A DNA stretch of 40,804 nt from positions 9,329 to 50,132 of the forward strand of contig PLSB01000110.1 in NCBI GenBank assembly GCA_003165005.1, given 5' to 3'. The notes beneath the pieces were generated by a model that saw only the letters and a program-made list of their open reading frames with translations, had not been told where the DNA came from and did no database searches. This DNA comes from Acidobacteriaceae bacterium. Lineage in GTDB: Bacteria; Acidobacteriota; Terriglobia; Terriglobales; Acidobacteriaceae. Positions within the stretch are counted from its first letter, which is position 1. Every line of letters starts with the position of its first letter. The position numbers and the translations under genes were made by a program. This document shows, one piece after another, positions 3,856 through 35,423 of the stretch.

Positions 3856-5436
3856 TCAGCGGATGGGAAGCCGTGACCGGAGCAGACTCCAACGCGTGTC
3901 GCGGTAAGGATCGCGCGTGTCTCCGTAGACCGGGTGGTAGCACTCCGGTCCTTCGCGGCCGGGAATCCGGATTCCGAAGTTGTTCAACTGAAGGTAGTGA
4001 CGCATCTGCAGCTTGTAGCGGCCTTCGATACCGAAGATCAGTTCCAGAATGCGCTCATTCAGCCAGACGATGTAGCGGAGCCCGAACTCCCAAAGGTAGG
4101 TGTACCCCTTGAAGAACTTCCAGTCGCCCGGGGTCGCGCGCCACATGCCGATCACCTCGCGGCGGATCTTCCAGCGCTGAAAGTTCAACTGCTCCGAAGT
4201 GAGCTCGTGGGTGCGCACGTTGCTGAAGTAGCCGTCGTACCAGCGAAAGTCGTTGAGGTTGGCGACGCGATGGTCGTCGATCATCTCCTGGCGCAAGGGC
4301 GTCTTGGGGTAAGGCGTCATGATCTGATCCATCACGCTGGAGATGCCCATGCCGCGGATGAACTGGTAGTTTTCGCGGATGCTTTCGGGATCGTCTTCCG
4401 GAAGACCGTTGATGATGCCGGCAATGACGACGATCTTGTGCTTTTGCAGAGCCTCCACACCGCGGCGAATGGTGTCGAGAGTGTTGGGCTTGTGCATGGC
4501 CTTGAGGTTTTTGGTGGAGCCGTTTTCGATGCCGAGGAAGATGGAGACGAATCCCGCTTCGACCATCTTGCGCGCCACATCCGGGCGATGGGCGAAACCG
4601 ATGGGGCTGGCCTGCGTGGTGAATATCAGATCCTTCAGCTTGAGCGAGATCACTCCGTCGCAGAGGCTCTCGAAGCGGTCCATGTCGAGCGTGATGTTGT
4701 CGTCAGTGCAGAAGATGTGGCGGGCGCCGCGGCTATAGGCATCCTCGATGTCGGCCAGCACGCGGTCGATAGGAAAGACGCGGAAGGAGCGGCCGTACAT
4801 CTCCCGGATACTGCAGAAGTTGCATCCATGCAGGCAGCCTCGCGAGGTTTCGATCGCATCCGCTTTGCGGAAATACATGTGGAAGCCCTTGACCAGGCGC
4901 TTGTCGCGGGCGGGGACGCGGATGCGGCTCAGATCTTCGAGGGGCCGCGGCGGATTGTGCTGGAAGACGCCATCCTGCTTGAAGGAAAGTCCGAGGATAC
5001 GGTCCATGCCTTTGCCGCCGGCTTCGAGGCTATCGAGCAGTTCCCCGAAGGAGAAATCGCCTTCGCCGCGCACGATGAAATCCCAAAAACGCGCGTCCGG
5101 GCCGGCGGCGAGCGACTCGGAGAAGAGCGTGGCGTGGTAGCCGCCGAGGACGGTGAGGATGGAGGGGGCGAACTGTTTGGCGGCGTAGGCGAGGCCGACG
5201 GTGGTCTCGTATTGAAAGGTCATCGACGTAAAGCCGACCACGTGAGGCCGAAATTCGCGCAACACTTCGAGAAAGCGCGGCAGCGCCTTCTTGCGCCAGA
5301 CCACCGTGTCGACGACGCGGACATCGTGGTTGTCGATTTGCGCGGCAATGGTGGCCATGGCCACACTGGGCGGCTCCCACTGGCGACGAGGGACCCATGG
5401 GGAGGTTGCCGGGCTTTGAATGAGCAGCGATCTCAT
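3856..5436 (-). CDS. B12-binding-domain radical SAM protein (lipid locus, no. 1)
   Basis: A 526-residue radical SAM protein with an N-terminal cobalamin-binding-type Rossmann domain (residues about 1-150: VVDTVVW, VVGFTSMTF, VLGGYHATL, VRGEGD). A radical SAM core follows, with the cluster motif CLHGCNFC (Cys201, 205, 208). The core also shows CTDDNIT, a GIENG-type strand and GIINGLPEDD. The canonical DxHxxG B12 motif is absent, as in BchE-like members of this class. The C-terminal region (about 400-526) is rich in Trp, Tyr and Arg. Such enzymes methylate, cyclise or rearrange unreactive carbons. It is the last gene of the ten-gene minus operon, 73 bases after an ACP gene, so an ACP-bound acyl substrate is plausible. 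The actual reaction is unknown. Confidence 0.85.
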   Translation of the reverse strand: MRSLLIQSPATSPWVPRRQWEPPSVAMATIAAQIDNHDVRVVDTVVWRKKALPRFLEVLREFRPHVVGFTSMTFQYETTVGLAYAAKQFAPSILTVLGGYHATLFSESLAAGPDARFWDFIVRGEGDFSFGELLDSLEAGGKGMDRILGLSFKQDGVFQHNPPRPLEDLSRIRVPARDKRLVKGFHMYFRKADAIETSRGCLHGCNFCSIREMYGRSFRVFPIDRVLADIEDAYSRGARHIFCTDDNITLDMDRFESLCDGVISLKLKDLIFTTQASPIGFAHRPDVARKMVEAGFVSIFLGIENGSTKNLKAMHKPNTLDTIRRGVEALQKHKIVVIAGIINGLPEDDPESIRENYQFIRGMGISSVMDQIMTPYPKTPLRQEMIDDHRVANLNDFRWYDGYFSNVRTHELTSEQLNFQRWKIRREVIGMWRATPGDWKFFKGYTYLWEFGLRYIVWLNERILELIFGIEGRYKLQMRHYLQLNNFGIRIPGREGPECYHPVYGDTRDPYRDTRWSLLRSRLPIR

Positions 5437-5509
5437 GCTTGTACTCTTCTATCTCTCATCAAGTGGAATAGATAACCACAACGATCCTACGAATCCCGCT
5501 GCTTGAAAG

Positions 5510-5791
5510 CTACGGCAGGCTGGGCGATGCCGCGTTCTTGGCTGAGATGGCGAGCTTACGGCGGATCAATGCGGCGATCTGCTCCACCGTGTCCAACGAG
5601 TATACGTCGATTTCGCGCGGCATGAATTCGATTTCGTAGCGGCGCTCGATAAAATCCACGAGTTTCAACATGCCCAGAGAGTCGACGATGCCGCCGGTAA
5701 TGAGCGGCATATCGCTCGCGATCGACTCGGCCGGCGCGTCGGGCAGAAAGGTGGCGGCCAGGAACTGCTTTAATTCGGTCTCAATCTCCAC
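5510..5791 (-). CDS. Acyl carrier protein (first of two)
   Basis: A 93-residue acyl carrier protein. The phosphopantetheine attachment Ser is in GGIVDSLGML (about residue 38), followed by the usual acidic helix KLVDFIERRYEIEF. Overlap with the ligase gene makes the start ambiguous. I chose GTG at 5791 because GGAAGGGA lies six bases upstream, at good ribosome-binding distance. ATG at 5797 or a farther upstream start would add 2-12 residues. The gene sits directly after the AMP-dependent ligase, whose end it overlaps, so the ligase may load this carrier. It is distinct in sequence from the other ACP at 12933-13208. Two different carriers also occur in aryl-polyene clusters. Confidence 0.85.
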   Translation of the reverse strand: MEIETELKQFLAATFLPDAPAESIASDMPLITGGIVDSLGMLKLVDFIERRYEIEFMPREIDVYSLDTVEQIAALIRRKLAISAKNAASPSLP

Positions 5792-7280
5792 GCACATTCC
5801 CTTCCGCGGCCCGCGCGAGAGCAGCATAATCGATTTTGCCCCGGTTTCCTTTCATCAGTATATCGGTAACGACGAAACGATCGGGCAACATGTAGGGAGC
5901 GAGCAGCCTAGCGCAGTGGGCGCGGATCTCGGCGAGAGCAAGATCTTGGCCGGCGCGCAGGCGAACGAAGGCAACGATTCTAGTTCCAGCAGCGGGATCG
6001 TTGGCCGCAACCGCGGCGGCTTCGATCACCTGGGGATGGCGCAGGAGGGCGGCCTCGATCTCGCCTAGTTCGATGCGGAAGCCGCGGCGCTTGATCTGCC
6101 GATCCAGGCGCCCATGGAAGAGATAGTTTCCGTCCGGAGCTACACTGACGCAATCGCCGGTACGGTAGTAGCGCTGGCCGTCAACTACAGTGAAGGCGCG
6201 CGCGGTCTCTTCGGGCCGATTCCAGTAGCCGTCCATGAGCGAAGATCCACCGGCGAGGAGTTCGCCGCGGGCAGGATCGACGACCGTCTCCGCGTAGGGA
6301 CAAGGAAGGCCGATGGGCAGCGGGTCGTCCTGCCTATAACCGCGAGGCACCGGGAACCAGGTGACGACATTCGTCTCCGTGGGGCCGTAGAGATTGACGC
6401 ACCGGGCATCGGGGACGGCTGCCATCAGCCGGACAAGCGCGGGAGGAGCAAAGACCTCGCCGGCGAAGAGGATCAGGCGCAGATCGGGGTAAGCCGACTC
6501 GGCGAAGCGGCCCTCTTCGAGCATGGCGGCCAAGATGGAGGGCACGGAATACCAGCAAGAAATGCGCGCTTCGCGCGCGAAACTGGCGAGAAAGCGCGGC
6601 ATCCACGCAATATTCTCCGGAACAAGAACGGCGGTAGCGCCGGTGAGCGCCATGTTGAAGAGATCAAAGGTGGAGAGGTCGAAGCCCAGCGGAGCGGGAC
6701 AGGCGATGCGATCGCTCGCAGCGATGTGGAATTCGTCCGCGGTCCAGCGCACGAAAGCAGCCACGGCATGGTGCGAAAGCACCACTCCCTTGGGAGCGCC
6801 GGTCGAGCCGGAGGTGAAGAGTAGAACCGCCGTTGCGGCTGAATCGAGAAGTGGCCAATCCGTAGCAACTTCTGGATCGCCGCCGGGCCGCGGGTCACGA
6901 AGTAGCGCGCCGGTTTCGAGATCGGTGATGCGCCGGGCGCCGTTCTCCTCTTCAATCAGCAGCCGTGCCGCACAATCGCGGAGAACCGCCTGAACGCGCT
7001 CCCTCGGCCAGCGGGGATGAATGGGCACATAGGCGGCGCCGGCGAGCAGCGATGCGAATACGGCAACCACGGCGCCGGTGGTTTTGGGCAGAAGGAGGGC
7101 GACGCGATCGCCGGGACGCAAACCGTGAGCGATGAACTCGAGGGCGAGGGCCTCGGCCTGGCGGTAGAGCTGGTCGAAGGTGGTGATGCGCCCGTCTTCT
7201 TCGATGGCCGGCGCGTGGGGCCGCTCCGCGGCGGTCGAACGAAGCCATTCGTGCAGCAGGTTGCATTCAGGCGCGGGCAA
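5781..7280 (-). CDS. AMP-dependent acyl-ACP/CoA ligase (adenylation enzyme)
   Basis: A stand-alone adenylation enzyme of about 499 residues that should activate a carboxylic acid as an acyl-adenylate and load it on an ACP or CoA. All core motifs are readable: LLFTSGSTGAPKGV (A3), NLYGPTETNV (A5), YYRTGD (A7), a GRLDRQIKRRGFRIE-type hinge (A8) and NRGKID with the C-terminal catalytic Lys (A10). The TTG at 7280 is preferred as start because GGGGAG lies six bases upstream; an upstream TTG at 7319 is possible. Either way it overlaps the end of the KASIII-like gene, and its own end overlaps the ACP gene, so translation is probably coupled. It could prime the pathway with a free acid, like the ligase of aryl-polyene clusters. 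The substrate is not predictable by eye. Confidence 0.88.
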   Translation of the reverse strand: MPAPECNLLHEWLRSTAAERPHAPAIEEDGRITTFDQLYRQAEALALEFIAHGLRPGDRVALLLPKTTGAVVAVFASLLAGAAYVPIHPRWPRERVQAVLRDCAARLLIEEENGARRITDLETGALLRDPRPGGDPEVATDWPLLDSAATAVLLFTSGSTGAPKGVVLSHHAVAAFVRWTADEFHIAASDRIACPAPLGFDLSTFDLFNMALTGATAVLVPENIAWMPRFLASFAREARISCWYSVPSILAAMLEEGRFAESAYPDLRLILFAGEVFAPPALVRLMAAVPDARCVNLYGPTETNVVTWFPVPRGYRQDDPLPIGLPCPYAETVVDPARGELLAGGSSLMDGYWNRPEETARAFTVVDGQRYYRTGDCVSVAPDGNYLFHGRLDRQIKRRGFRIELGEIEAALLRHPQVIEAAAVAANDPAAGTRIVAFVRLRAGQDLALAEIRAHCARLLAPYMLPDRFVVTDILMKGNRGKIDYAALARAAEGNVRGD

Positions 7281-8265
7281 GGCTGACTCCCCACGTGAAG
7301 CCGACGCCGGACGAGGCAAAAAGAATAAGCTGGCCGGGAAGAATGCGGTTCTCGCGGAGCAGATCCACGTAGTTCACGATCAGATCGCTCGAGAACGTGT
7401 GCCCGATTTCGGCCATGCGGGTAACGGGAAGGCCGCCCTCGGCGAGGCCGAACATGCGGCGAAAGCCCTCGCGATCGCGTTGACTGATGTTGGAGTAGAC
7501 GAAATGGTCCACGTCGCGGATCGTGAGCGAGTGGGCGGCGAGGACCTTGTTGACGAGCCGGTAAAGATGCAGATAAACAATGGGCATCACCCTCTGCTCG
7601 ATGGCCACGGCGTCGGCCACGATCTCGATCCCGCCGGGAGTTTGGCGCAGCGCGATGGCGTCGTGCAGGTGGCCGAGCGTCATGGCCTCAACCCCGAGCA
7701 GAACGGGGCCCTGGGCGGCGTCGCGCGAGAGAAGAATCGCGCTGGCGCCATCGCCCTGGATCGTGACGGGCAAGAGAGACCGATTGGCCTTGGGCGCGCC
7801 GTCGCCCGTGACCAGCAGCGCTGTGCGAAGTTTCGAGTCCAGTGCCATCCAGCCGAGGGCCGTCTTGATGGCCAGATGAAGAGCGCCGCAACCGCCGCCG
7901 CGGAAGGCGAGATTAAGCGAGGTTTCAGCGCCGAGCTCGGCGCTGAGCCAGTGCGCGAGTGAGATGGACTGCGGGCCGTCGCCGGGGAAGGTGCTGAAGT
8001 CGAGGATGAAGTCGACCAGGCGAGGCTGAATGCCGGCCAGACGGATGGCTTCGCGGGCGGCTTCGAGGGCCAGGTCCGAGGGCCGCCGCGCACCGCAGAC
8101 ACGCACGCTGGAGATGCCGAGGTTCTCCGCCGCCAACTGCCTGGCCCGCGGAGAGAGCGGCGCCAGGGCTTCCCGGACGCGCTCTTCTTCCGCGTCGAGA
8201 ATGGCTGCGACGCTCTCTTCGTTTTCCGGCAGCACGTAAGCGGCGGAGGCGATGCGTACGTTCAC
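7267..8265 (-). CDS. KASIII-like 3-oxoacyl-ACP synthase with altered active site
   Basis: A thiolase-fold condensing enzyme of 332 residues, FabH/KASIII type. The nucleophile is in FRGGGCGALHLA (Cys126). The two other FabH signatures differ. The usual PHQAN segment (catalytic His) reads VYSNISQ (about 256-262), and the usual GNT (catalytic Asn) reads GHTFSSD (His289). So the normal Cys-His-Asn triad is not conserved, and a different mechanism or an acyl-transfer role is possible. The start is the GTG at 8265, which overlaps the stop of the preceding gene as GTGA and has GGAGGT nine bases upstream. A longer open reading frame to 9138 in this frame is the shadow of the upstream ketosynthase. 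It may start the chain, or join two chains as in DarB-like enzymes. Confidence 0.85.
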   Translation of the reverse strand: MNVRIASAAYVLPENEESVAAILDAEEERVREALAPLSPRARQLAAENLGISSVRVCGARRPSDLALEAAREAIRLAGIQPRLVDFILDFSTFPGDGPQSISLAHWLSAELGAETSLNLAFRGGGCGALHLAIKTALGWMALDSKLRTALLVTGDGAPKANRSLLPVTIQGDGASAILLSRDAAQGPVLLGVEAMTLGHLHDAIALRQTPGGIEIVADAVAIEQRVMPIVYLHLYRLVNKVLAAHSLTIRDVDHFVYSNISQRDREGFRRMFGLAEGGLPVTRMAEIGHTFSSDLIVNYVDLLRENRILPGQLILFASSGVGFTWGVSLARA

Positions 8266-9344
8266 GATGACGGCACCTCCAACCGCAGGGCCGCGAAAGC
8301 GCCGCCGGCAGCGGTTCCCAGCATGAGAGCCGAACCACTTCCGGGCCGGCGGCTTAAGGCCAGCAGAAGATGAAACAGGCCGCCGCTCCTGGCCAGACCA
8401 TCGGCAACGGGCAGCGAAGCGACGATGCGCGCATCGTTTCTCGAAAAAGACTGGCTCGAAAACGCCTGGCCGGCACAAGAACGAAAAACGCCGGCGGGCG
8501 GATCGCATGAGCACGGACCGCCGTTGCCGGCCGAGAAAACCAGTGACGGAACGGAAGGGAAAAGATGGCGAATGGCCTGGGCGGAATCGCCGCTGCGCGC
8601 GTAGCGGCCGCCGGCGAATTGCGCGTAGCCTCTGCGTTCGGTGCTGAGACCGGATTCGAGGAGTAGAGCGGCCACGCCCTCGCTGGGAACAAAGTCCGCG
8701 GATCGGGCGGGCGGATCGGAAACAAAGCACGCGGGAGAGAGCAATCCGGCCGTTTCGTACCACTGGTAAACCGCCGGGCTGAGCGCATCGCCTGCAATGA
8801 CGATGGCGCGGTCGGCCTGGCCGTGCCTGAGAAGCGATGCGGCGCGCAGCAATGCGATCTCCGCGGCAAAGTTTTCGCCGCCGAGAGTGAGGTTGGGGCC
8901 GCGCAAGCCGTGGAAGAGCGCAACGTGACAGGCCGGGGCATTGGCCAGAGTCTCCGGGAAGGTGATGGGATCGGTTCCAGTCCAGCCGTTGAGAGCGGCG
9001 CTGCGATAGAAGGACTCCGTGAGCTCGACACAACCGAAACCGCTGGCGAAGAGAACCGCGACACGCGAGCGATCGATGGTGTCGAGGTTTACGCCCGCAT
9101 CCTGGAGGGCCAGCGAGGCCGCGACCAGCGCCCAGCAAGAGAGGCGATCCAGTCGCCGCGTCTTGACGCCGGGCACGAGCTTGGCGGGATTGAAAGGCTG
9201 CACCTGGTAAGCCCGGCGCAATGTGGCGTTCGGCCAGGCGGCGATCGGTTCCGGCTCGACCTCAAGGCCGGAAAGGAGGCCGGCCGTTGCGCCGAACGGA
9301 GAGACCGAGCCGAACCCGGTAATCGAAGGCAAGTTCGCGTTCAT
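8262..9344 (-). CDS. Degenerate beta-ketoacyl synthase (chain-length-factor type)
   Basis: A 360-residue FabF-like protein that has lost its catalytic residues. Where active enzymes have TACASG it has LGGENFAAE (about 154-162), and where they have NAHGTGTP it reads FSAGNGGPC. The fold signatures remain (VSPFGATAG, RRLDRLSCWAL, FASGFGCVE, GLRGPNLTL, VIAGDALSP, PSEGVAALLLE). Such inactive ketosynthases normally dimerise with an active partner and set chain length. The active partner is encoded immediately upstream, and the two genes overlap by four bases (ATGA). The pair parallels the KS/CLF of type II PKS and the KS pairs of aryl-polyene clusters. I see no sign of truncation, but it is shorter than a normal FabF (about 410), with a compact C-terminal half. 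Confidence 0.82.
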   Translation of the reverse strand: MNANLPSITGFGSVSPFGATAGLLSGLEVEPEPIAAWPNATLRRAYQVQPFNPAKLVPGVKTRRLDRLSCWALVAASLALQDAGVNLDTIDRSRVAVLFASGFGCVELTESFYRSAALNGWTGTDPITFPETLANAPACHVALFHGLRGPNLTLGGENFAAEIALLRAASLLRHGQADRAIVIAGDALSPAVYQWYETAGLLSPACFVSDPPARSADFVPSEGVAALLLESGLSTERRGYAQFAGGRYARSGDSAQAIRHLFPSVPSLVFSAGNGGPCSCDPPAGVFRSCAGQAFSSQSFSRNDARIVASLPVADGLARSGGLFHLLLALSRRPGSGSALMLGTAAGGAFAALRLEVPSS

Positions 9345-10543
9345 GCGTCAACGCTCCCAAAGACAAGGGCCGCATTGCTGCCGCCGAAGCCGGCTGAAAC
9401 CGACATGGCCGCGGGAATATCCTGGCTCCGCCATGCGCCGCGCAGATACTCTATGTCCTGGCTTTCGATGGGATCGGCAAGCCGCAGCGTGGGCAGCAAA
9501 GCACTCCTGCGCATGGCAAGAATCGTGATGGCGGCTTCAAGAGCGCCCGCAGCGCCCAGGCAATGGCCGATATAGGACTTTGTGGATGAAACCGGAATGG
9601 GCGTCGAGCGGCCGCGGAAGACCAACTCGTAACACCTGGTCTCCGCAATATCGTTGAGCGGAGTGCCGGTGCCGTGGGCATTGACGTAGCCGATCTCGTC
9701 GATGCCCGTTCCGGCCATCTCCATCGCCAGCCTCATGGCAGAGGCCAGACCCTTGCCTTCGGTGTCGGGCGCGGTGGAGTGGTAAGCATCGTTGGTCATG
9801 GCCCAGCCGCGCAGGATGGCGAGAGCCTCGGCTCCCCTGGACCGGGCATGAGCCAGAGTCTCCAGCACCAGCACTGCGGCGCCTTCGCCTAGGTTGAGCC
9901 CCTGGCGGCTCTTATCGAAAGGACGGCAGGGAGACGGATCGAGAGCCTGCAGGGAATGGAATCCGCTGGCGGTGAAAGCGGACAAGGCATCGCTGCCTCC
10001 TGCGAGCGCCAGCGGAACCTCGCCGTCGAGCAGCATATTCGCGGCCAGAGCCAGGGCGATTGCTCCCGAAGCGCAAGCCACGGAAACGGCGCAGGCCGGG
10101 CCTTCAATGCCCAGGTGTTCGCCGACCGAGGCGGCGACGCGCGAAATCGGATAGGTAGCGGCGCGGGCCAGGCCGGCCTCCCGATACCATGCTGCCGGAT
10201 CGACGGCGATTGCAGGTTCGATCTCTGTGAGTCCGGCGACCGTGGTGGCCATGACAATTCCACTTTGCCGCAGCAACTCGCGCGGCAGGCCCGCGCAGGC
10301 GTCTTCGGCAGCGGCCATGGCCAGACGGTCGCTGCGCGAGTAACGATGCGGGTTTTCGACATCGGGCAGAGAGGCCACGCGGGCCACGTGTCCCGAGAAG
10401 CCGGGAAAGAGGTCCGCGGCCGGAGCCAGACAGCTCTTGCCGGCCAGCAGTCCTGCCTCCAGCGCGGCACTGCCCAGGCCGTAGGGGCTGACAACGCCGA
10501 TGGCGGTGACAGCAATCGTTTTTTCCGGATCAGGCAATATCAT
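9341..10543 (-). CDS. Active beta-ketoacyl-ACP synthase (FabF/KS-alpha type)
   Basis: A 400-residue decarboxylating condensing enzyme with a complete Cys-His-His triad: Cys157 in VSVACASGA, His290 in NAHGTGTPLND and His327 in SYIGHCLGAAGA. The standard elements GGSDALSAF, RPFDKSRQGLNLGEGA and the C-terminal SAGFGGSNA are present. It would extend an acyl-ACP with malonyl-ACP. The ATG at 10543 overlaps the end of the acyltransferase gene by 14 bases, and its own stop overlaps the start of the degenerate ketosynthase, so the two subunits are probably made in equal amounts. Placed in this operon it is more likely a secondary-lipid or polyene enzyme than housekeeping FabF. Confidence 0.92.
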   Translation of the reverse strand: MILPDPEKTIAVTAIGVVSPYGLGSAALEAGLLAGKSCLAPAADLFPGFSGHVARVASLPDVENPHRYSRSDRLAMAAAEDACAGLPRELLRQSGIVMATTVAGLTEIEPAIAVDPAAWYREAGLARAATYPISRVAASVGEHLGIEGPACAVSVACASGAIALALAANMLLDGEVPLALAGGSDALSAFTASGFHSLQALDPSPCRPFDKSRQGLNLGEGAAVLVLETLAHARSRGAEALAILRGWAMTNDAYHSTAPDTEGKGLASAMRLAMEMAGTGIDEIGYVNAHGTGTPLNDIAETRCYELVFRGRSTPIPVSSTKSYIGHCLGAAGALEAAITILAMRRSALLPTLRLADPIESQDIEYLRGAWRSQDIPAAMSVSAGFGGSNAALVFGSVDA

Positions 10544-12907: not shown

Positions 12908-12932
12908 GGCGGGATGCGCTCCTGGAGCAGGC

Positions 12933-13208
12933 TCAGCGTTGAGCGGCGATCTTCTCGGCGATCTTCGCATCGACGGCGGCGGCCAAAGTGGCGATGGTGC
13001 GCCACGCGTTGCGGTCGAATTCGCCTTCCACCAGCTTGATTCCGAAGTGCCTTTCGATTTCGAGGATGAGCTGCAGGACATCGATCGAGTCGAGCTCGAT
13101 GTCGCCGTCGAGCAGTGCCTGGTCGTCGGGCAGATCGGCCGCGGTCCGGTCTTTGATGCGCAGACCTGAAATGACGATCTGCTTCAACTGTAGCGCCGTG
13201 TTTTCCAT
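12933..13208 (-). CDS. Acyl carrier protein (second of two)
   Basis: A 91-residue acyl carrier protein with the phosphopantetheine Ser in GDIELDSIDVLQ (Ser41), followed by LILEIERHFGIKL, the standard helix II/III pattern. It differs clearly from the ACP at 5510-5791, so it was not made by a recent duplication. It lies between the PHP gene (25 bases upstream) and a radical SAM gene (25 bases downstream). The start is the ATG at 13208. Two carriers may separate chain initiation from chain elongation or tailoring. Confidence 0.9.
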   Translation of the reverse strand: MENTALQLKQIVISGLRIKDRTAADLPDDQALLDGDIELDSIDVLQLILEIERHFGIKLVEGEFDRNAWRTIATLAAAVDAKIAEKIAAQR

Positions 13209-14289: not shown

Positions 14290-14405
14290 ATGTGCGTGCC
14301 TTGCTGCCGCCATCCTCAGCCGTCAAGTGTAGGAGTGCACAGCGTTACCGCGTGGCATTCGCGGCGACCGGAGCCAGCGCGCGGCCTCCGTGCCACGGCC
14401 TCTGA

Positions 14406-21588: not shown

Positions 21589-21595
21589 CGCCGGC

Positions 21596-24084: not shown

Positions 24085-24085
24085 C

Positions 24086-25930: not shown

Positions 25931-26035
25931 TTGAGGATTGTGGCTTCGCCTGATACCAATAAAAGGACCGCCAGAGCGATCGCGCGCAGTTCGAGACGGG
26001 CATACCGATCCGGCCCGCAAACGATGGCGCAATCT

Positions 26036-26079
26036 CCCACCCATTTCCGCAGAAAACGCGGAAATGGATGGGGCACGGA
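26036..26079. repeat. REP-like palindrome with the same outer arms but a different stem
   Basis: CCCACCCATTTCCGC at 26036-26050 and GCGGAAATGGATGGG at 26058-26072, with a 7-base loop (AGAAAAC), followed by GCACGG. The outer arms (CCCACCC / GGATGGGGCACGG) are those of the repeats at 19754 and 25828, but the inner stem has changed on both sides so that pairing is kept. This points to selection for the hairpin, or to a mixed family of elements. Confidence 0.65.
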
Positions 26080-26105
26080 AGCATTATTTTAGGGCCGGAC
26101 CAATC

Positions 26106-27206: not shown

Positions 27207-29752
27207 TCGCCCGATTCACGCGTCCGCTGGCGCATCTGGTGATCCGCTTCCCCGGATGGGTAGCGGCGGCGGCATTGATCGTAACGCTCGTCCTTTTCTC
27301 GCACATACACGCTCTGCGCACCAGCACCGATCTGACCGACATGTTCGGAGCCAAGGATCCGCAGTGGCAGGCAGTAAGCAAGATCGGCAACGAACTCGGC
27401 TATGGAAATCAGCTCTACGTTCTGGTGCTGGCTCCCGAAGGCGGCCAGGACCGCAGCGAACAGATGGAGCAGGTGGCCGATCGACTGACCGAGGAGATGT
27501 CGGCGAGCGGGCTTTTCAAGTCGGCGCGCTCCGGCCTGTCGGAAGAGGAACTGCTGGGCATGGTGCGGCTTTTTTCCTGGAATTTCCCGGTATTCGCGGA
27601 CGCGGAAAACCGCCAGGCCATTCGCGACCGGCTCGATCCCAAGCAGATCCATGCCAACGTGCGCGCCGCCGCCACCGAACTGGTGACTCCCTTCTCGACT
27701 CTGGGCACAAACTACTTTGTCGCCGATCCATTGGGACTGACGGCCGCGGCGGCTCGGAACTCACAGGGCTTGAGCCAGTTTGGCAGCTTCGATCTCACCT
27801 GGGGTGAAGGCAACCGTTTCTTCAGCAAGGATCACAAGGCGCTGCTGATTATTGCCGAACCGCGCCAACCGGCCGTGGATTACCAGTATGCCCACCAGGT
27901 GATGGAGTGGGCCCGGCAGCACGTCGCGGAGGCCACATCCGCCGCGGAGGTTCGGGAATCAGGCGTTCACGCTCTTCCCGCCGGGGCCTATGTCTACTCC
28001 GAAGAAGACCATCTGTTCATCGAAAAGAACATCCGCCGCGTCTCGCTGGTCTCGATCGTCGGCAGCCTGCTGCTTTGCCTGGCGGTTTATCCCAACGTCC
28101 AGATCGTCTTCCTGTCGCTCTTGCCCACGGGCCTGGGAATCCTGTGGACGACGGGAATTGCCAGCTATTATCCCGGCGAAGTGAATCTGATCAGCTTGTC
28201 GTTCATCGCCATTCTCGCCGGCCTTGGCGACGACCAGGTGGTGCACTTCTTCAACCGCTCGCCGCAGGAGTGGGAGAAGGGCGGCAGCTTCAACGACGCC
28301 ATGCTGCGCACCTTTGAAACCACGGGAACCAGCATCGTGCTGTGCATTCTGACCGCGGCCACTTCGACGGCCGCGCTGGCCTGCTCCGGCTTCAAGGCGC
28401 TCTCGGAGTTTGGCTTCATCCTCACCGTGGGCATGTTCATGACGGGCTTGCACACGCTGCTGACGGTGCCCGCCCTGATGCAGTTGTGGGGACGCTATAT
28501 CAAGCCGCTTGCTCCCAAGGCCATCACCTTCCGTTTTCTGCCGGCCGTGGCGCGGGTGACGGTGGATTTTGCCGGCCGTCACGCCCGCGCCGTTGTGATC
28601 GCCGCCGCCGGCCTGTTTCTCGTCTCGCTGTGCCTCCTGCCTTCCCTTCGCTGGGGGGGAAACTTTGTGGTGGAGAGCGGCGCGGACTCGCCCGGACTGA
28701 CGGCGCAAAACCTGCTTTCGTCCAAGTACGGCATCGAAGGCAGCCCGGATGTGCTCCTGATCGCCGGCAGCGAAGAGGAAGTTCTAAGCCGCGCCGAGAA
28801 CCTGACCTCCGGACTCGAGGAATACCAAAGAAAGGGCGTGGTGAAGTCGGTGTTTTCGCCGACCCAGCTTCTGCCGTCCGTCCAGATGCAGGCGCAGCGC
28901 GCCGCCTCGCTCAAGGGGATCGATCTGGACGCCGCGGCGCGCGCCCTCAAGGAGTCTCTAGCGGAGAACGGCTTTCGTCTCGAACCTTACGCCTCCTATT
29001 TCGCGCGCCTTCACCAGTTGAGCCAGGGCGCGCAGCCGCTCACCCTCGAGGGTGCGGAGACCTATCTGCCTGCCGATCTGATGGAAAACAGCATCCGCCG
29101 GACCGCGGACGGCAGCTACGTCGCGGCCATCGCGTTCTATGCCGCCGATCCCAACGCCACGTCGGCCGTCCCCGATCCCGTCCTGAAACAGTGGCGCGAT
29201 CGATACGGTCCGTTTGTCGACTTCTCGTTCAACAAGATCGACCGGGACCTCGAAAGCCGGGTCTCTCACGACAGCCGCCGCGCCCTCCTTTGGACGGCGG
29301 CGGCGATCTTCCTGATCGTGTACTTCACCTTTCGCCGCCTGTCCACAGCATTGCTCGTCCTCATGCCCATCGCTTTTGCCATCGTGGTCACCTTCGGTCT
29401 CTTAGAGCTTGCCGGGCATCGTTTCAGCATGATGGCGATCACCGCGCTGCCTCTCATCGTCGGCATCGGCATCGACAACGGGATTCACCTGGTGCGCCGC
29501 TATCTTGAGAGCGATCGGAACCGCATTCTCACCGTCGCCAAAGCCTCCGGGGCCGCGCTGATCCAGTCGAATCTCACCACCATCGTGGGTTTCGGCGCCT
29601 TGATGACCGCCACCTTCAGGCCCCTGGCCGAGATGGGTCTGGTGACTTCGGTGGGCGTAGCGCTGACTCTGGCTGGGGGTTTCTGGCTGATTCCTGCCAT
29701 CCTGCACCTGAAGGAAAGCGCCAAGGGCAAGGCAGTGGCCGCGGACTTGTAA
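27203..29752 (+). CDS. MMPL/RND-type lipid exporter
   Basis: An 849-residue inner-membrane transporter of the RND superfamily, MMPL/HpnN-like branch. It has two repeats of one membrane helix, a periplasmic loop and five helices. Landmarks are the first helix ALIVTLVLFSHIH, loop start TSTDLTDMFGAKDP, charge-relay region FIAILAGLGDDQVVHF in the first half and LPLIVGIGIDNGIHLVRR in the second, and a C-terminal helix ending GGFWLIPAILHL. It should flip or export a lipid using the proton motive force, handing it to the LolA-like carrier. The ATG at 27203 has GGAG eight bases upstream and overlaps the preceding stop. Related exporters are found in aryl-polyene and hopanoid loci. This supports an envelope-lipid product. 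Confidence 0.88.
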   Translation: MIARFTRPLAHLVIRFPGWVAAAALIVTLVLFSHIHALRTSTDLTDMFGAKDPQWQAVSKIGNELGYGNQLYVLVLAPEGGQDRSEQMEQVADRLTEEMSASGLFKSARSGLSEEELLGMVRLFSWNFPVFADAENRQAIRDRLDPKQIHANVRAAATELVTPFSTLGTNYFVADPLGLTAAAARNSQGLSQFGSFDLTWGEGNRFFSKDHKALLIIAEPRQPAVDYQYAHQVMEWARQHVAEATSAAEVRESGVHALPAGAYVYSEEDHLFIEKNIRRVSLVSIVGSLLLCLAVYPNVQIVFLSLLPTGLGILWTTGIASYYPGEVNLISLSFIAILAGLGDDQVVHFFNRSPQEWEKGGSFNDAMLRTFETTGTSIVLCILTAATSTAALACSGFKALSEFGFILTVGMFMTGLHTLLTVPALMQLWGRYIKPLAPKAITFRFLPAVARVTVDFAGRHARAVVIAAAGLFLVSLCLLPSLRWGGNFVVESGADSPGLTAQNLLSSKYGIEGSPDVLLIAGSEEEVLSRAENLTSGLEEYQRKGVVKSVFSPTQLLPSVQMQAQRAASLKGIDLDAAARALKESLAENGFRLEPYASYFARLHQLSQGAQPLTLEGAETYLPADLMENSIRRTADGSYVAAIAFYAADPNATSAVPDPVLKQWRDRYGPFVDFSFNKIDRDLESRVSHDSRRALLWTAAAIFLIVYFTFRRLSTALLVLMPIAFAIVVTFGLLELAGHRFSMMAITALPLIVGIGIDNGIHLVRRYLESDRNRILTVAKASGAALIQSNLTTIVGFGALMTATFRPLAEMGLVTSVGVALTLAGGFWLIPAILHLKESAKGKAVAADL

Positions 29753-29966
29753 GTCCTTTGTCTTCAGACTTGAGATTTTGCCGCGAATTGGCCAACCTTG
29801 CTTAGAAAGAGGGCGAAATGGACAGTTTATCTGTCGAGAGGCGCGGCGCAGACCGTGCATCCCTACCGGCGGCCATCGCCCCGCATCCGCTCATCGCATT
29901 CACTATTCCCAGACTGGAACAAGGTGTATACTTGCCACACATTATAGAACTGAGTTGAAAAGACGT
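29753..29966. other. Intergenic region with a possible promoter -10 box
   Basis: A 214-base gap between the MMPL gene and the Tes-like gene. It holds TATACT at 29927-29932, about 35 bases before the ATG, but no convincing -35 box at the right distance. No repeat or small gene is seen. Confidence 0.3.
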
Positions 29967-31535
29967 ATGTCCGGATCTGCTGCGGAGGATTTGAACATCG
30001 ATTTGGTTGCCTCCCTTTGCCCCAAGTGTGGAGCACCGAGTACGGCGACCATCTTCGATCGCGGGGGAAAGGTCTACCAACGCTCCCAGTGCGCCTGTCA
30101 TGAGCCGGTCGAAGATCTGATTTTTTCCGACACCGCCCTCTACCGCAAGCTCGACGAATGGAACCGGCTGGTTTTCCCGGATGCTCCTACTGCCGACTTG
30201 CCCCCAGGAAATTGTTATTGCCAGCAGGACATGAAGAGCGGGAACGAGCCCTGTCTGGCGGTGATCGATATTACCAATCGCTGCAACTTCCGCTGCCCGG
30301 TCTGTTTCGCCGAAGCCAAGGGAGAAGGCAGCCACTACCAGCTCGATCTCACGACCGTAAGGAAGATGCTGCAGGCCTTGCTGGACCGCCCCGTGCCCTG
30401 CCGCAGCGTGCAGTTTTCAGGCGGCGAGCCCACTTTGCATCCGGAGTTTCCCGCGATTCTGCGCATGGCGCGGGAGATGGGCTTCACGCACATCCAGGTG
30501 GCGACTAACGGAAGCAAGTTTGCCGATCCCGGCTATGCGAAACTCTGCGAGGATTCGGGACTGCACACGCTCTATCTCCAGTTCGACGGGATGAGCGACG
30601 AAGTTTACGTGAAGATGCGCGGGCAGCGCCTGCTCGACAAAAAGATTGCCGCGGTGCGCAGCGTCGAGCAGACCAACATGCGGCTGGTGCTGGTGCCAAC
30701 CATCATCGCCGGCGTCAATGTCGATCAGCTTGGGCCCATCTTCCGCTTCGCCCTTGAGCACAGCCGCTTTGTCACCGGCATCAGCATTCAGCCGGCGGCG
30801 CACGTTGGCCGCGTCAGCGTCGAGGAGGATGGGGCCGAACCCTTCAATCTTGCCGCCATGGCCCGCGAGTTCGGCGAACAAACCGGGCTGACGCGATTCC
30901 CCGACGACTGGTTTCCCCTCAATTCGCTTTCTTTGCTGAGCCGGGCCATCGACCGCGTCCGTAACCAGCGCTCCCACCCCCCGCTCAGCGATGCGCATTG
31001 CTCGGTCGGAACTTTCTTCTACGTCGATGACAACAACCGGCCTTTCTGTCTGAACAGCTTCTTCGATCTGGGCGGCTTCCTGCGCGGTATGGCGCAGGTG
31101 AAGCCCATGTCCGAACAGGGACTGATCGAGAGGCAGATCTCGAAGATCCGGCAATTCAGCATGTTGTCGAGCCGTCTCGATAAGCACAAGACCCCGCCTG
31201 GACTCACATTCCAGCGCCTGATTCGCTCGCTCGATGCCTGGGAAGACAAGAATGACGGCAGATCCGAGGGTTGGGACCAACGCGGCTTCAATGGCATTTT
31301 CGTCGCCGGCATGCACTTTATGGATGCCCACAGCTACAACCTGCGCAGGCTGCACCGCTGCATCATCCAGTACGTCTCCACGGACGGAGAGCTGATCCCC
31401 TTCTGCAGCTATAACGCCGGCGCACGGCTTCGCGAGTCGGAAGAGTTGGTTCGCATTGAAGACCGGCCGGTCTCGGGCCCCGCGCAAGTTCCCTCCGCGG
31501 CAATGCCCGCTCAGGACACGACCATCGACGGTTGA
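29967..31535 (+). CDS. Tes-like (COG1964) radical SAM protein
   Basis: A 522-residue radical SAM enzyme resembling the MJ0619/tetraether synthase (Tes) family as I remember it. The N-terminal cysteine-rich domain reads SLCPKCGAP (Cys18, 21), GGKVYQRSQCACHEP (Cys42, 44), DLIFSDTALYRKL and NCYCQQ (Cys83, 85). The core follows: AVIDITNRCNFRCPVCFAEA (Cys106, 110, 113), FSGGEPTLHPEF, VATNGSKFA, LYLQFDGMSDEVY and ISIQPAAHVGRVS. Further cysteines near HCSVGTFF and FCSYNAG may bind an auxiliary cluster. Archaeal Tes couples lipid tails tail-to-tail; acidobacterial homologues have been proposed to make iso-diabolic acid or branched GDGTs. The start ATG (MSGSAAEDLN) is chosen because the longer frame from 29778 is not family-like. 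The role here is inferred; COG1964 also has other members. Confidence 0.8.
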   Translation: MSGSAAEDLNIDLVASLCPKCGAPSTATIFDRGGKVYQRSQCACHEPVEDLIFSDTALYRKLDEWNRLVFPDAPTADLPPGNCYCQQDMKSGNEPCLAVIDITNRCNFRCPVCFAEAKGEGSHYQLDLTTVRKMLQALLDRPVPCRSVQFSGGEPTLHPEFPAILRMAREMGFTHIQVATNGSKFADPGYAKLCEDSGLHTLYLQFDGMSDEVYVKMRGQRLLDKKIAAVRSVEQTNMRLVLVPTIIAGVNVDQLGPIFRFALEHSRFVTGISIQPAAHVGRVSVEEDGAEPFNLAAMAREFGEQTGLTRFPDDWFPLNSLSLLSRAIDRVRNQRSHPPLSDAHCSVGTFFYVDDNNRPFCLNSFFDLGGFLRGMAQVKPMSEQGLIERQISKIRQFSMLSSRLDKHKTPPGLTFQRLIRSLDAWEDKNDGRSEGWDQRGFNGIFVAGMHFMDAHSYNLRRLHRCIIQYVSTDGELIPFCSYNAGARLRESEELVRIEDRPVSGPAQVPSAAMPAQDTTIDG

Positions 31536-31704
31536 ACGAGGTTTCTGGCGATTGGTCCGGATGCGATTGCGGGCTCGTCTTGATAGAAGCCGGAAGATTG
31601 CAACTTTGAGTCTTGGGAAGCGCAAACCTAAGAGAACGAATTTACGTTGGCGGAAAACCGGGGCCTCTCAGCAGGCTCCGATAGCAAGGAACTCCAGGAG
31701 CAAG

Positions 31705-34677
31705 ATGAGTACGTTCGTCGTTACAGGAAGCGGAGCGCTCAAAACTGGGCGATATGCCTCGTTGCTGGCTTGTTCGGCCCTTCTGATTTTGCCGGTTTCA
31801 GGGCAGTCCGGCCTGCCGCATCTTGCGGCTCCCGTCGCCCCATCCCACACCGCAGAGGAGTTAGCGGCCAACGTGACCACAGCCAGTTCCTGCGCGGCGC
31901 AGGGTTCTCCCGTGATCATGCCGGCTGCGGTTCTCGACCTGGGCGCAAACGCCCTTTCCGCCTCGCCGCTCGCCGGTCAGGCCTCGGCCCTCGGCAATCT
32001 TCCGTCAAACGCGGAAGTGTGGCTCCATCTCCGCGTCGGCCTTGCGAATTTGACCGGGAATGAATCGGAACAGGATCTCGCCGCGCGCGTGGATGCGGCC
32101 CTGAATCAGGCCCCACTGGCCGCGCACGGCGTTCACGGACTGATCGTGGAAGTGGACGACCCCGGCAAGGCTGGGGACCTGGCTGCCTATGCGCTCTTGC
32201 GCCTCGCCATCGGCGCTCGCTCGCTCAATCCCAATCTCCGCCTCGCATTCGCCTTTCCCGCCGGATTCGTCGCCAGCCATCAGGACCTGGTCAAGCGCCT
32301 CGCGCCCTACTCCGATCTCCTCGGCGTCGCCTTCTCCTCCGCATGGCGCGACGAGGCCAAGTGGATCGCTGAGCAGGCGCTCAATAAGCCGCTGCTGCTG
32401 AAGGTGGACGCCTCGGCCAATCCGGAGGCGGTATTGCTCGAGGCTGCCATCGAGTCTTCGGGAACCCAGGTGGAGACGCTGTGGAGCGAAGCGGACCAGG
32501 CCTCTCTCGCTGGCCGAGTCTGCCGCCTGAGCAGCTTCCTGGCTCAAAACGTGCACGCCAATATGCTGCGGATCGACCGCTCTGCCGTTCCGTTGTCGCT
32601 CACCGTCGACGGCTCGCCCGCCGCCGATGCGCTGTGGCTCTCGAGCGGTCAATCGGCGGACTTCGTGGTTCTGGTTCCCATCGGCGGCAGCCCGGACCGT
32701 CTTCGCACCGCCGAACTCCAATGGTCCGGCAAGGCGCAGTACGACGCGGCGTGGTTCGATCCGGCCACCGGCGCAGCTCTGGCTCCGGGCAAGCCCGTGC
32801 AATCCGGCGACGCAACCACCCAGACGGCCTCCGCGATTACGGCTCCCTATGTGCTCATCGCGCTCCATCGCAAGAACCCTGCGGAGACCGCGGTCTATAA
32901 CCAGGTGGAAGTGAAAGGCGGCATTTCGCTCCAGGTCGAGGAGATCGTCGCCCGCTGGCAGCAGTATCGCGAGGCGCAGGACCGGCGGCTGGAGAATGAC
33001 GAGGCCAGCGTCTTTATGAGCCTCCACTTCGAAACCGTTTCTATCGGAAGCGGATTCGATATCAGCATGAACATGAAGCAGTTTTCCAGCCGCGGTGGAG
33101 CGACGGAATTTGCGCAGACCGAGTTCTATGTCAACGGTGTCAAGTTCGGCAGCAACTACAAGTTTCCGCTCCCGCAATTGGAACCGGAAAAGGTGCTCAC
33201 CCAGCCCCTGGTGCTGAAGCTCAACGAGCCCTACACCTACAAGCTGCTCGGCACTGAGCAGATCGAGGGAGCGCTCTGCTATGTGATCGGCGTCGAACCC
33301 AAGGTTGCCGGCCAGAACCTCTACAGCGGCAAAATCTGGATCGACGGCGTCTCATTCCGCGAAGTTCGCCAAACGCTCAGCGAATTCAGCGATAAGAGCA
33401 ACGTGGTTGTGAACGTTGAGACCGAGAACTTTGCCCTGGTCGACGACGGCCACGGTGGTCAGTTCAATCTCCCGCAATCCTTCAACGCGCAGCAGACGCT
33501 CAACGTCGCCGGCCGCGACTTCCAACTGCAGCGCAAGGCCGTATTTTCCGGCTACTCCATCAATGGCAGCACCTTCGCTGCCGATCTCACCGCCGCGCAC
33601 AAATCGAGCGATCCCATGTTCCAGGACACCGATCAAGGCCTGCGCGAGCTCAAGAAGGTCGGCGACCAGCGCGTCCTCCAAACCGGCACCGAGAAGCGCA
33701 TCCGGTCCCTGGTTGGCGGCGCCATGTACGCGGGAACCTTTAATTTCCCCATTCCCTTCGCTGGCATCAGCATTGCCGACTTCGATTGGCGCCACACCGG
33801 TGCGCAGCTCTCCATCTTCTTCGCCGGGCCCATCGCGGCCGTCAACTATTCCCGGCAGCAGGGAACCCGGTTCCGCTACGGCACAGACATCGCGGTTTCC
33901 GCTCTTCCCGGCGAGAATCGCGTCTACGTGGGCAACGTGGAGCAAACCGGAGAAGAGGTTTGGAATTGGTCTGAGACCGTGGGCCAGCGCGCCACATGGC
34001 TGGCCTCCGACCATCTCAGCCTCACCGGATACGCCTATCTCGAGGGCGACATCTACCGCGGCACCAGCGACACATCCAGCCAGTACGTCCTGCCGCGCGA
34101 CGGCGTCGCCGTGCTGCCCGGCGTGCAGGTCCGCTTCACCGACAAGGGCTACATCTTCACCGCCGACGGCACGCGCGGCCAGCGGATCGCGTGGAAGCCC
34201 TTCGGCTACCCGTCGGCGCTACAACCCGTCGAGAGCGGGTACACGCTCTACGACGGCGACCTCAATAAGGATTACTACATCCGCAAGTTCACGAAGGGCG
34301 GATGGGACCTTGGCTACTACGGCGGAGAACAGCTCGACCGTTTCTCCCGCTACTTCCCTGGGTTCTTCTCCGCGCCGCGCCTCCACGGCATTCCCGGCGG
34401 GACCGACTCCTTCGACGCCATTGCCATGAGCAACGCGCACTACGGCTTCAACGTCATGGATCTGTTCAAGATTGAGGGCCTTTACAGCTACGCCCGCGCG
34501 CGCGACCTCAGCGAGTCAAGCCATTTCAAGAAGTTCGACGGCGCTGAGACTAACTTCAACACCGCGGGTCCACGTGGCACGTTGATTCAGGGGACCGTCG
34601 GCTACGCCATCGACGGCAACATCGCCCGCTACAACTCCCGCTGGAGCTTCAACGTGATGCTCTACAAGCCATTCTGA
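31705..34677 (+). CDS. Large outer-membrane-type protein of unknown function
   Basis: A 990-residue secreted protein I do not recognise as a named family. A signal peptide covers residues 1-36 ([18 protein letters not shown]). Residues about 95-220 look like an alpha/beta-barrel segment ([32 protein letters not shown]). Residues about 450-640 are beta-rich and resemble a LolA/outer-membrane lipoprotein-sorting domain ([30 protein letters not shown]). The last 330 residues are rich in Tyr, Gly and aromatic beta strands and end NVMLYKPF, with a terminal Phe as in outer-membrane beta-barrels. The ATG at 31705 has AGGAG five bases upstream. The FabG-like gene follows after five bases. It is a good candidate for the outer-membrane receiver of the lipid, but this is inference only. 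Confidence 0.6.
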
Positions 34678-34682
34678 TCGCG

Positions 34683-35423
34683 ATGACGGCAGAGAACAAA
34701 ACCGCGCTGGTAACCGGGGCCTCGGGAACCCTGGGAGCCCAGATCGCCCTGGCGCTCGGGCGCAGCGGCTATCGCGTGGCGGTTCACTACCACAAGAACC
34801 AGGCGGCGGCCGCCGAGGTGGTTGAGAGCATTCAGGCAGCAGATGGAGAAGCCATCGCCGTGGCTGCCGACCTCTCGGGCCGCAACAGCGTGGCGCCGCT
34901 CTTCGCGGAAGTCGAAACGCGCCTGGGGCCGGTTGATTGCCTGGTGAATAGCGCGGGGATCAATCGCGACGCTATGCTGGCCCTTATGTCCGACGCGCAG
35001 TGGGACGAGGTCATCGACACCAACCTCCGCGCTGCGTACTTGTGTTCGAAACTGGCTGTCATCGGCATGATGCGCGCGGGCGGCGGCAGCATCTGCAATA
35101 TCGTCTCCCCCAGCGGAGTGCGCGGCCAGGCCGGCCAATGCAACTACTCCGCCGCCAAGGGCGGCCTGATTGCCCTGACCAAAGCCCTGGCCCGCGAAGC
35201 CGGACGCTTTAACGTCCGCGTCAACGCGGTCTGCCCCGGCGTGGTGCCCAGCCCCATGTCGGCCAGATACATCGAAAAGGAAGAGATTCGCCTGCTTGCC
35301 GAAATCCCGCTGGGCCGTTTCGGCAAGCCCGAAGAGATCGCCCCCTTGGTTGCGTTTCTGGCTTCGACCCAGGCAAGTTACATCACCGGACAGGTCATCG
35401 CCGTTGATGGCGGTTTGCTGTAG
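34683..35423 (+). CDS. FabG-like 3-oxoacyl-ACP reductase (SDR)
   Basis: A 246-residue short-chain dehydrogenase with the NADP-binding TGASGTLG (10-17), the NSAG motif (89-92), catalytic Ser142 (NIVSPSG), Tyr155 and Lys159 (NYSAAKGG), and the FabG-type C-terminus [14 protein letters not shown]. It would reduce 3-oxoacyl-ACP to 3-hydroxyacyl-ACP, the step between the KS pair and the FabZ-like dehydratase. It begins five bases after the outer-membrane protein gene, so it is the last gene of the plus-strand lipid series. A decayed copy of its 3' end lies at 36241-36313. Confidence 0.92.

Follow-up and report, generated by a model that had tools for sequence, protein, structure and literature searches.

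What does a bacterium make with a gene cluster that sets polyketide-type chain building and outer-membrane export beside radical S-adenosylmethionine (SAM) enzymes of the membrane-spanning-lipid type? The cluster occupies positions 3856-35423 of the stretch analyzed here (the window, 40,804 nucleotides of contig PLSB01000110.1), which belongs to the metagenome-assembled genome (MAG) Acidobacteriaceae bacterium GCA_003165005.1, an assembly of 3.9 Mb in 327 contigs that is 75% complete. A preliminary description had read it as an envelope-lipid locus. Frames were selected by codon-position GC and then scanned against Pfam and NCBIfam, and every enzyme class listed in that description was found within 3856-35423 (the dehydratase-like partner without a Pfam match), including three B12-binding radical SAM proteins (rSAM1 to rSAM3; 3856-5436, 11432-13081, and 21596-23269) and one Tes-family protein (29778-31535). 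The proposed combination of an aryl polyene (APE)-like backbone and export set with radical SAM tailoring and an ether-forming type of enzyme pair was thus borne out. We suggest that the locus may encode a dedicated outer-membrane (glyco)lipid pathway with radical C-C joining, ether-bound in one sub-type, a reading for which we see about as much reason to accept as to doubt.

The locus is a real conserved unit and not a chance assembly, because the same genes recur in 14 further clusters, where most of the proteins are 38-82% identical to those of the window and gene order is kept over long blocks; the coupling enzyme of one sub-type has only 30-32% identity to the window protein. The 15 clusters comprise the window, a second copy in the same MAG (contig C22), and 13 in other acidobacterial MAGs (bog_96, bog_321, bog_202, palsa_254, palsa_286, SRVP_8, RBG_13_68_16, JABCZL, SRVP_4, AA130, AA144, JOPF093, and UBA5172). 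Contig ends cut several of them, and gene counts hold where the contigs reach. The preliminary description had staked its reading on the radical SAM and activase genes staying beside the ketosynthase (KS) and acyl carrier protein (ACP) genes. This held for rSAM1 and rSAM2, which are present in every cluster where that stretch is visible and lie with KS/ACP genes on a single contig in all six evaluable clusters (window, bog_202, palsa_254, SRVP_8, JABCZL, and SRVP_4); it did not hold throughout for rSAM3 and the activase pair, which are missing from some clusters.

The true cluster family was picked out with the LolA-barrel fusion protein as a marker. A profile search within the taxonomic family of the host matched 8 of 300 genomes including our own, and all seven others adjoin cluster genes. 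A scan of the named genome collection gave 15 loci, 13 of them beside cluster genes (the exceptions are in fen_299 and BP8.bin110), and seven of these 13 are the same contigs as the seven from the family search. Related loci, which the preliminary description had proposed to seek across genomes, were all acidobacterial: the 15 loci come from Acidobacteriota MAGs (Acidobacteriaceae, Granulicella, 'Terriglobia', Ca. Sulfotelmatobacter, and 'Acidobacteria'), and six of them are titled bog, palsa, or fen. The dehydratase-like protein, the KS without an active cysteine, and Tes were rejected as markers, each having drawn in relatives outside such clusters, and the PHP protein used as a query over the named genomes gave no match. 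Our searches of open-licence papers showed no description of this gene combination among the entries listed. The C22 copy (1-27094) is syntenic with the right-hand part of the window cluster at 50-80% identity and stops at rSAM1; it is closest to bog_96 and bog_321, and it is either a true paralogue or a mis-binned contig, with a tetranucleotide comparison favoring neither.

The candidate for the joining of chains is the Tes-like protein. Its residues 78-556 match the structure of GDGT-MAS/Tes (7tol, 285 bits), and the alignment covers the CxxxCxxC motif of the radical SAM domain and the C-terminal hC, rC, and fC cysteines. By this likeness, the coupling enzyme would form a C-C bond between lipid tails. 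In a survey of the phylum, Tes-like matches were present in 168 of 297 genomes including our own, in a group of about 550 amino acids (aa) near 400 bits and one of about 700 aa near 220 bits, with some intermediate. The latter is provisionally called Mss-like here because it occurs in all 30 same-family genomes listed and because of the identity of 32% given for the E. aggregans homologue in PMC8941075.

Two kinds of coupling enzyme were found in the clusters: the Tes lineage in nine (window, C22, bog_96, bog_321, bog_202, palsa_254, palsa_286, SRVP_8, and RBG_13_68_16) and a duplicated Mss-like enzyme in four (JABCZL, SRVP_4, AA130, and AA144). No coupling gene lies on the short cluster contigs of JOPF093 and UBA5172, whose genomes hold an ordinary Mss-like copy. 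In a tree from which Tes fragments below 400 aa were excluded, the cluster Tes rows (nine rows from eight distinct clusters, the window being present twice) form one separate clade (100/100), and the four Mss-type enzymes form a clade (100/99) within the family of about 700 aa, beside ordinary genomic copies. The bog_96 enzyme was too fragmented for the tree and was assigned to the Tes type by its 75-78% identity. With the systems for bacterial membrane-spanning ether lipids (Mss and Ger) and with archaeal Tes, the cluster has in common both a radical SAM enzyme of the Tes family and a pair of the PlsA-like kind. Here, however, these enzymes are part of a type II synthase cluster that has a starter and an outer-membrane export route of its own, and the Tes lineage of the clusters forms a separate long branch.

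This raises the question whether two pathways merely lie side by side, an APE-like set and a set of the branched glycerol dialkyl glycerol tetraether (brGDGT) type (Tes, the Ger-like pair, and B12 radical SAM methylases) that acts on ordinary phospholipids. We consider this rather unlikely, although it has points in its favor: Tes-type and Ger-type genes lie apart from the cluster in many relatives, the pair lies apart in bog_202, and, according to PMC13274423, Mss takes both ester and ether lipids and Acidobacteria make brGDGTs and methylated iso-diabolic acids. On the other side stands the position of the coupling gene. The Tes gene sits inside the cluster, between the MMPL and LolA-barrel genes, in eight of the nine Tes-type clusters (bog_96 judged from two contig ends) and between the barrel and deacetylase genes in RBG_13_68_16; the Mss-like gene sits between rSAM2 and rSAM3 in three of the four Mss-type clusters and between the LolA and PHP genes in AA144. 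The coupling role has been filled by two lineages. Moreover, 7 of the 12 genomes hold an ordinary Mss-like copy outside the cluster, namely five of the eight Tes-type (bog_96, bog_202, palsa_254, SRVP_8, and palsa_286) and two of the four Mss-type genomes (JABCZL and SRVP_4), so that in these the housekeeping enzyme is a different one from that of the cluster; no such copy was found in our own genome, bog_321, or RBG_13_68_16. Finally, an inner-membrane lipid would not need the MMPL, LolA, and barrel set. None of the 20 Tes-like neighborhoods fetched in 19 genomes holds the cluster; weak matches were seen there to rSAM1, PHP, the family 2 glycosyltransferase (GT2), and FabG, and the PlsA/HGDB matches had 21-26% identity. 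At one locus (L166:9045-12970), a Tes gene is followed by rSAM1-like (24%) and PHP-like (30%) matches, an arrangement that recalls part of the cluster, and at another, from a different family of the phylum (L156:5119-9600), distant PlsA/HGDB-like genes (26% and 21%) directly adjoin a Tes gene.

The second element of the membrane-spanning-lipid type is the PlsA/Ger-like pair, composed of an activase with BcrAD_BadFG and DUF2229 domains and a dehydratase part. This partner was assigned by its pairing and by cysteine motifs that we take to be those of 2-hydroxyacyl-CoA dehydratases. The pair of the cluster clade is present in eight of the nine Tes-type clusters and in none of the four Mss-type clusters. 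It lies on the same contig in the window, C22, bog_96, palsa_254, SRVP_8, and palsa_286; in bog_321 it stands at the end of a contig from that genome. Among the Mss-type genomes, AA130 and AA144 gave no match to the pair at E 1e-20, JABCZL has a distant homologue only, and SRVP_4 carries a copy of the stand-alone group elsewhere. In the tree of the dehydratase-like protein (open frames of at least 900 aa excluded), the eight cluster copies form one clade (97/92) and branch in the same way as the Tes tree for the shared rows. This is good evidence that the pair was co-inherited with the Tes lineage. Away from the clusters, the two genes of the pair form a unit by themselves: the dehydratase-like gene occurs in 35 of the 347 phylum genomes surveyed, our own included, and the activase gene adjoins it in all 18 neighborhoods fetched in 17 of the 34 other genomes. 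None of these 18 holds the cluster at E 1e-6, and their other matches are only a ligase piece (32%) and an MMPL (24%). PMC13274423 describes Ger as a PlsA-like enzyme acting at both glycerol positions. The pair found here would convert ester to ether. The preliminary description had considered an ether-bound product possible. Because the pair is absent from the Mss-type clusters and unlinked in bog_202, the ether step could be a property of one sub-type at most.

The next question is what starts or caps the chain. The stand-alone adenylation domain scores above the cut-off of the amino-acid adenylation model TIGR01733 (339 against 317 bits) and, at what we presume to be the ten specificity positions, reads DLFYLALVVK, with DLLYLALVVK in one cluster. 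This comparison covers 11 rows from six distinct clusters, several being duplicate loci of one contig; the last residue is missing in one row, and rows of 400 aa or less were excluded. When the code region was searched against solved structures, the best match was 6o6e, an L-proline--[L-prolyl-carrier protein] ligase that we take to be PltF (104 bits), followed by the proline ligase 7thn (68 bits). At nine of the ten code positions 6o6e has D-L-L-Y-L-A-L-V-C, the lysine lying outside the alignment. With the whole protein, a multidomain gramicidin synthase came top by summing two domains, and 6o6e was the best single-domain entry. The window enzyme thus has the specificity residues of L-proline enzymes and most probably activates proline, and a proline-derived starter or cap is therefore likely. 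The statement in the preliminary description that no aryl-starter gene is present was misleading, the ligase being of the proline-activating type by its code and structure matches. The pyrrole starter sets PltF/PltL/PltE, PigI/PigG/PigA, and RedM/RedO/RedW follow a three-gene logic, and the cluster shares with them a stand-alone proline-type adenylation domain beside a carrier and, in four clusters only, a gene like acyl-CoA dehydrogenase (ACAD). In contrast to those sets, its ACAD-like protein is about 600 aa long and very divergent, is missing from 11 of 14 genomes, and stands in an envelope-lipid cluster. The gene is found in the window, C22, bog_96, and bog_321, where the protein may oxidize the prolyl ring towards pyrrole. 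No other dehydrogenase was seen among the 12 extra open reading frames (ORFs) inspected in clusters without it. A missing starter gene could not by itself set the locus apart from APE clusters in any case, because Escherichia coli APE takes its 4-hydroxybenzoate starter from UbiC of the ubiquinone pathway, outside the cluster (PMC8253772).

How far does the likeness to APE clusters go? The APE gene list (ApeA-R), taken from PMC8253772, is matched by a KS with a cysteine-less partner (ApeO-ApeC type), two ACPs, an adenylating ligase, a dehydratase, a ketoreductase, an acyltransferase, a glycosyltransferase, a methyltransferase, a LolA-like protein, and a resistance-nodulation-division (RND) exporter. 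The cluster differs in its proline-type ligase in place of a benzoate-type aryl acid ligase, its FabZ, a KASIII-like protein with an altered site, the B12 radical SAM proteins, the Tes/Mss-type enzyme, the Ger-like pair, the NodB-type deacetylase, and the LolA-barrel fusion. The Cys-His-His triad of the KS is kept in all 11 rows (seven distinct clusters), and its partner has Asn, Gly, Ala, or Thr at the place of the cysteine in all 12 rows (seven distinct clusters). In every row the KASIII-like protein keeps its cysteine, whereas its His is replaced by Ser and its Asn by His; an acyl-transfer role may be surmised from this. One dehydratase (FabZ) and one ketoreductase (FabG) would process the chain; no dedicated enoyl reductase was annotated in the Pfam and NCBIfam scans of the cluster, and the short-chain dehydrogenase/reductase (SDR) scores as FabG. 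The dehydratase scores 28.4 bits with the ApeI model PF22818 (cut-off 28.5) and 19.7 bits with the ApeP model PF22817 (cut-off 27). Judged from its genes, the cluster resembles the APE pathway in building and export and departs from it in two of the features tested, one of them by a tenth of a bit.

A product of APE type, a pigment with a prolyl or pyrrolyl head on which the radical SAM proteins including the Tes-like one modify the head or anchor with no tail-to-tail bond, is nevertheless unlikely in our view. The shared gene list (PMC8253772), the lack of a gene annotated as a dedicated enoyl reductase, and the missed NCBIfam cut-off for Tes would all fit it, but the dehydratase is of FabZ type and misses the ApeI model narrowly and the ApeP model as well, nothing in the APE gene table corresponds to the Ger-like pair, and the other sub-type has recruited a second enzyme of the membrane-spanning-lipid type. 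Simpler type II clusters at two loci from other families of the phylum (L125 and L127) have a KS, a cysteine-less KS, ACP, GT2, deacetylase, ligase, and LpxL, with an additional Tes-like gene of about 650 aa at L127 and MMPL and FabG genes at L125; the stretches fetched around them showed nothing that matches the B12 radical SAM genes or the Ger genes. These loci are possible relatives of the cluster core.

The B12 radical SAM proteins are candidates for the methylation of lipid chains. rSAM1 is among the most conserved proteins of the cluster (69-82% identity). rSAM3 is present in the window, palsa_254, SRVP_8, JABCZL, SRVP_4, and AA130, and its identity as HpnR, the hopanoid C-3 methylase, was rejected (TIGR04367, 224.2 bits, cut-off 650). 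In bog_321, a 34-residue rSAM3 remnant (L196:1227-1319, 56% identity), flanked by the ACAD-like and deacetylase genes, occupies the place of the whole gene in the window, which suggests that rSAM3 was lost in this cluster. A ladderane-like lipid, or another with chains cyclized by these enzymes, was also considered, since the Kuenenia ladderane candidates share fatty acid synthase-type genes, a B12 radical SAM protein, a methyltransferase, and a polysaccharide deacetylase with the cluster (PMC2649909). With the ladderane B12 radical SAM model TIGR04072, however, the three proteins score only 76.1, 80.5, and 68 bits (cut-off 360), and neither 'activase' nor 'transporter' appears as a word in the text of PMC2649909. 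We regard a product of this kind as highly improbable, in agreement with the preliminary description, which had set the locus apart from the ladderane loci.

A GT2 and a NodB-type deacetylase, both overlooked in the preliminary description together with the PHP-like protein, point to an amino sugar. As in the ArnC/ArnD-type polyprenol amino-sugar pair, which we take as the fitting comparison, a polyprenol-phosphate-type GT2 stands beside a NodB-type deacetylase, but the GT2 is far under the ArnC cut-off (30 of 529 bits). The 1073-aa ORF at 31456-34677 had also been overlooked; besides a LolA-like part, it is predicted to have a glycoside hydrolase (GH)-like part and an outer-membrane barrel. 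The full-length model (8 sequences) has a mean predicted local distance difference test score (pLDDT) of 43, with better values for the first 390 residues or so, which match glycoside hydrolases (8iu8, E 4e-10). The model of the C-terminal 600 residues (15 sequences, mean pLDDT 62) has a LolA-like helix and sheet and then about 16 strands, for which Foldseek returned ushers, TamA/BamA barrels, and a lipoprotein-sorting domain (3bk5). We assign the product with moderate confidence as a LolA-barrel fusion of the outer membrane. Relatives of this protein (35-37%) also occur with no cluster gene nearby (L206:4818-7754 and L207:2323-5292), the former beside M16 and prolyl-oligopeptidase-type peptidases.

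Taken in order, a dedicated outer-membrane lipid pathway would run as follows. The adenylation domain would load proline onto ACP1, the ACAD-like protein, in 4 of the 15 clusters, may oxidize the ring towards pyrrole, and the KASIII-like enzyme with its Cys-Ser-His site would hand on the starter unit. The KS and its cysteine-less partner, FabG, FabZ, and ACP2 would build the chain, to which the B12 radical SAM proteins would add methyl carbon at unactivated positions. The GT2 and deacetylase would make a polyprenol-linked amino sugar that the LpxL-type enzyme would acylate. The Tes-lineage enzyme or, in the other sub-type, the Mss-like enzyme would join chains by a C-C bond, the PlsA/Ger-like pair would turn ester into ether in the Tes sub-type only, and MMPL, LolA, and the LolA-barrel fusion would carry the lipid to the outer membrane. 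There is a tension in this scheme, as a polyketide starter forms the omega end, where a Tes-type enzyme would act. Three ways round it are conceivable: another acyl chain of the same lipid may be joined, a methyl carbon that a B12 radical SAM protein has introduced may be the point of joining, or the proline may cap the head side. More tentatively, and with rather more doubt than belief, we propose that the product could be a new class of outer-membrane lipids with proline-capped (in some clusters pyrrolyl), C-methylated, polyketide-type chains that are radically C-C joined and, in one sub-type, ether-bound, which would form a bridge from APE-like to tetraether-type lipids.

What is observed here is gene content, conservation, the proline code, the states of the active sites, the occurrence of two types of coupling enzyme, and the joint inheritance of Ger and Tes; the reactions and the product are all deduced from genes, and this is the first of several points that weigh against our reading. 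The window enzyme misses the curated Tes cut-off NF045702 (350.8 of 450 bits), and a changed substrate or reaction is therefore possible. The ACAD-like protein scores only 30.7 bits with the L-prolyl-PCP dehydrogenase model (cut-off 650), and its gene is absent from 11 of the 14 genomes searched, five of which hold only a relative of about 260 bits that is common in the class too; a starter common to all clusters can therefore not be pyrrole. Five clusters (C22, bog_96, bog_202, palsa_286, and bog_321) do not have the rSAM3 gene at its place, and it is thus not essential to the pathway. In bog_202, the pair lies on a separate 6.8-kb contig, and the cluster contig continues past the deacetylase with other genes, without the pair or rSAM3. 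RBG_13_68_16, of the Tes type, has no Ger-like match in its possibly incomplete genome. The link between Tes and Ger rests on one split of the tree and not on many independent events, so that the evidence is good for co-inheritance and weaker for functional dependence. Moreover, Ger and PlsA are at present not separable by sequence according to PMC13274423, and the mean pLDDT is modest for the barrel model (62) and poor for the full-length model (43).

The features of the cluster are collected in Table 1. Codon-position GC supports all of its frames but two; the cysteine-less KS and ACP2 were accepted because of family matches and conservation. The true start of rSAM2 is likely near 12950, because the frame as called overlaps ACP2. 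A GH9 cellulase with a CelD_N domain adjoins the cluster at 1853-3610, and a DUF4410 gene at 36470-37171; similar-looking secreted genes stand beside the Ger-like pair in palsa_254 and SRVP_8. Other clusters have, between rSAM1 and ACP1, a secreted esterase-like protein of about 300 aa that the window does not have (L178:4934-5839, L181:6725-7630, and L184:4594-5547; PF00756 in the one copy scanned).

Table 1. Predicted genes of the cluster, with positions in the window and the basis of each assignment
Feature	Position	Strand	Basis or remark
rSAM1, B12-binding radical SAM, CxxxCxxC (CLHGCNFC)	3856..5436	-	best model BchE, far under cut-off
ACP1, carrier protein adjoining the adenylation domain	5510..5827	-	PF00550
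Stand-alone adenylation domain, proline type, code DLFYLALVVK	5781..7319	-	TIGR01733 above cut-off
KASIII-like protein; Cys kept, His to Ser, Asn to His	7267..~8295	-	start codon approximate
KS without active cysteine, chain-length-factor-like	8262..9344	-	family match
Active KS, Cys-His-His	9341..10543	-	family match and active-site residues
LpxL/PIM-type acyltransferase	10530..11435	-	Pfam/NCBIfam
rSAM2, B12-binding radical SAM, CxxxCxxC (CVYHCTYC)	11432..13081	-	Pfam/NCBIfam
ACP2	12933..13208	-	PF00550
PHP-like metal-dependent phosphoesterase	13234..14313	-	weak family match
2-Hydroxyacyl-CoA-dehydratase-like partner	14471..16303	+	no Pfam match; Cys motifs and pairing
PlsA/Ger-like activase, two BcrAD_BadFG and DUF2229	16300..19731	+	Pfam
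Divergent ACAD-like protein	19867..21654	-	best NCBIfam model L-prolyl-PCP (peptidyl carrier protein) dehydrogenase, 30.7 bits, cut-off 650
rSAM3, B12-binding radical SAM, CxxxCxxC, HpnR-like	21596..23269	-	224.2 bits, cut-off 650; absent from some clusters
NodB-type polysaccharide deacetylase	23032..24084	+	Pfam/NCBIfam
GT2, nearest AglJ / polyprenyl-phospho-GalNAc synthase PpgS	24044..24760	+	under cut-offs
LolA-like carrier	24762..25394	+	best model LolA2_flexi, 31.7 bits, cut-off 125
FabZ dehydratase	25391..25807	+	NF000582 129 bits (cut-off 113); TIGR01750 124 (cut-off 155)
DUF2062 and methyltransferase	25938..27206	+	Pfam
MMPL/HpnN-type RND exporter	27194..29752	+	Pfam/NCBIfam
Tes-lineage radical SAM protein	29778..31535	+	NF045702 350.8 bits, cut-off 450; structure match 7tol
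Secreted fusion: GH-like (TIM-barrel), LolA-like, and ~16-stranded outer-membrane barrel	31456..34677	+	predicted models; start more likely ~31705
FabG-type SDR ketoreductase	34683..35423	+	NF009466 243 bits (cut-off 222); TIGR01830 262 (cut-off 298)

The brGDGTs of soil and peat and the related iso-diabolic acid lipids serve as climate proxies, although the organisms that make them and the enzymes that tailor them are only partly known (PMC13274423). In the acidobacterial MAGs studied here, enzymes of the coupling and ether-forming types form part of a cluster dedicated to synthesis and outer-membrane export. The two sub-types, Tes with the Ger-like pair and the Mss-like enzyme without it, offer a natural comparison for the dependence of the ether step on the coupling enzyme. 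The locus is conserved and unusual in adding a module of the membrane-spanning-lipid type to an APE-like pathway, and its product could be a new lipid class, which, if true, would link the specialized APE-like lipids with the tetraether-type lipids of peat Acidobacteriota.

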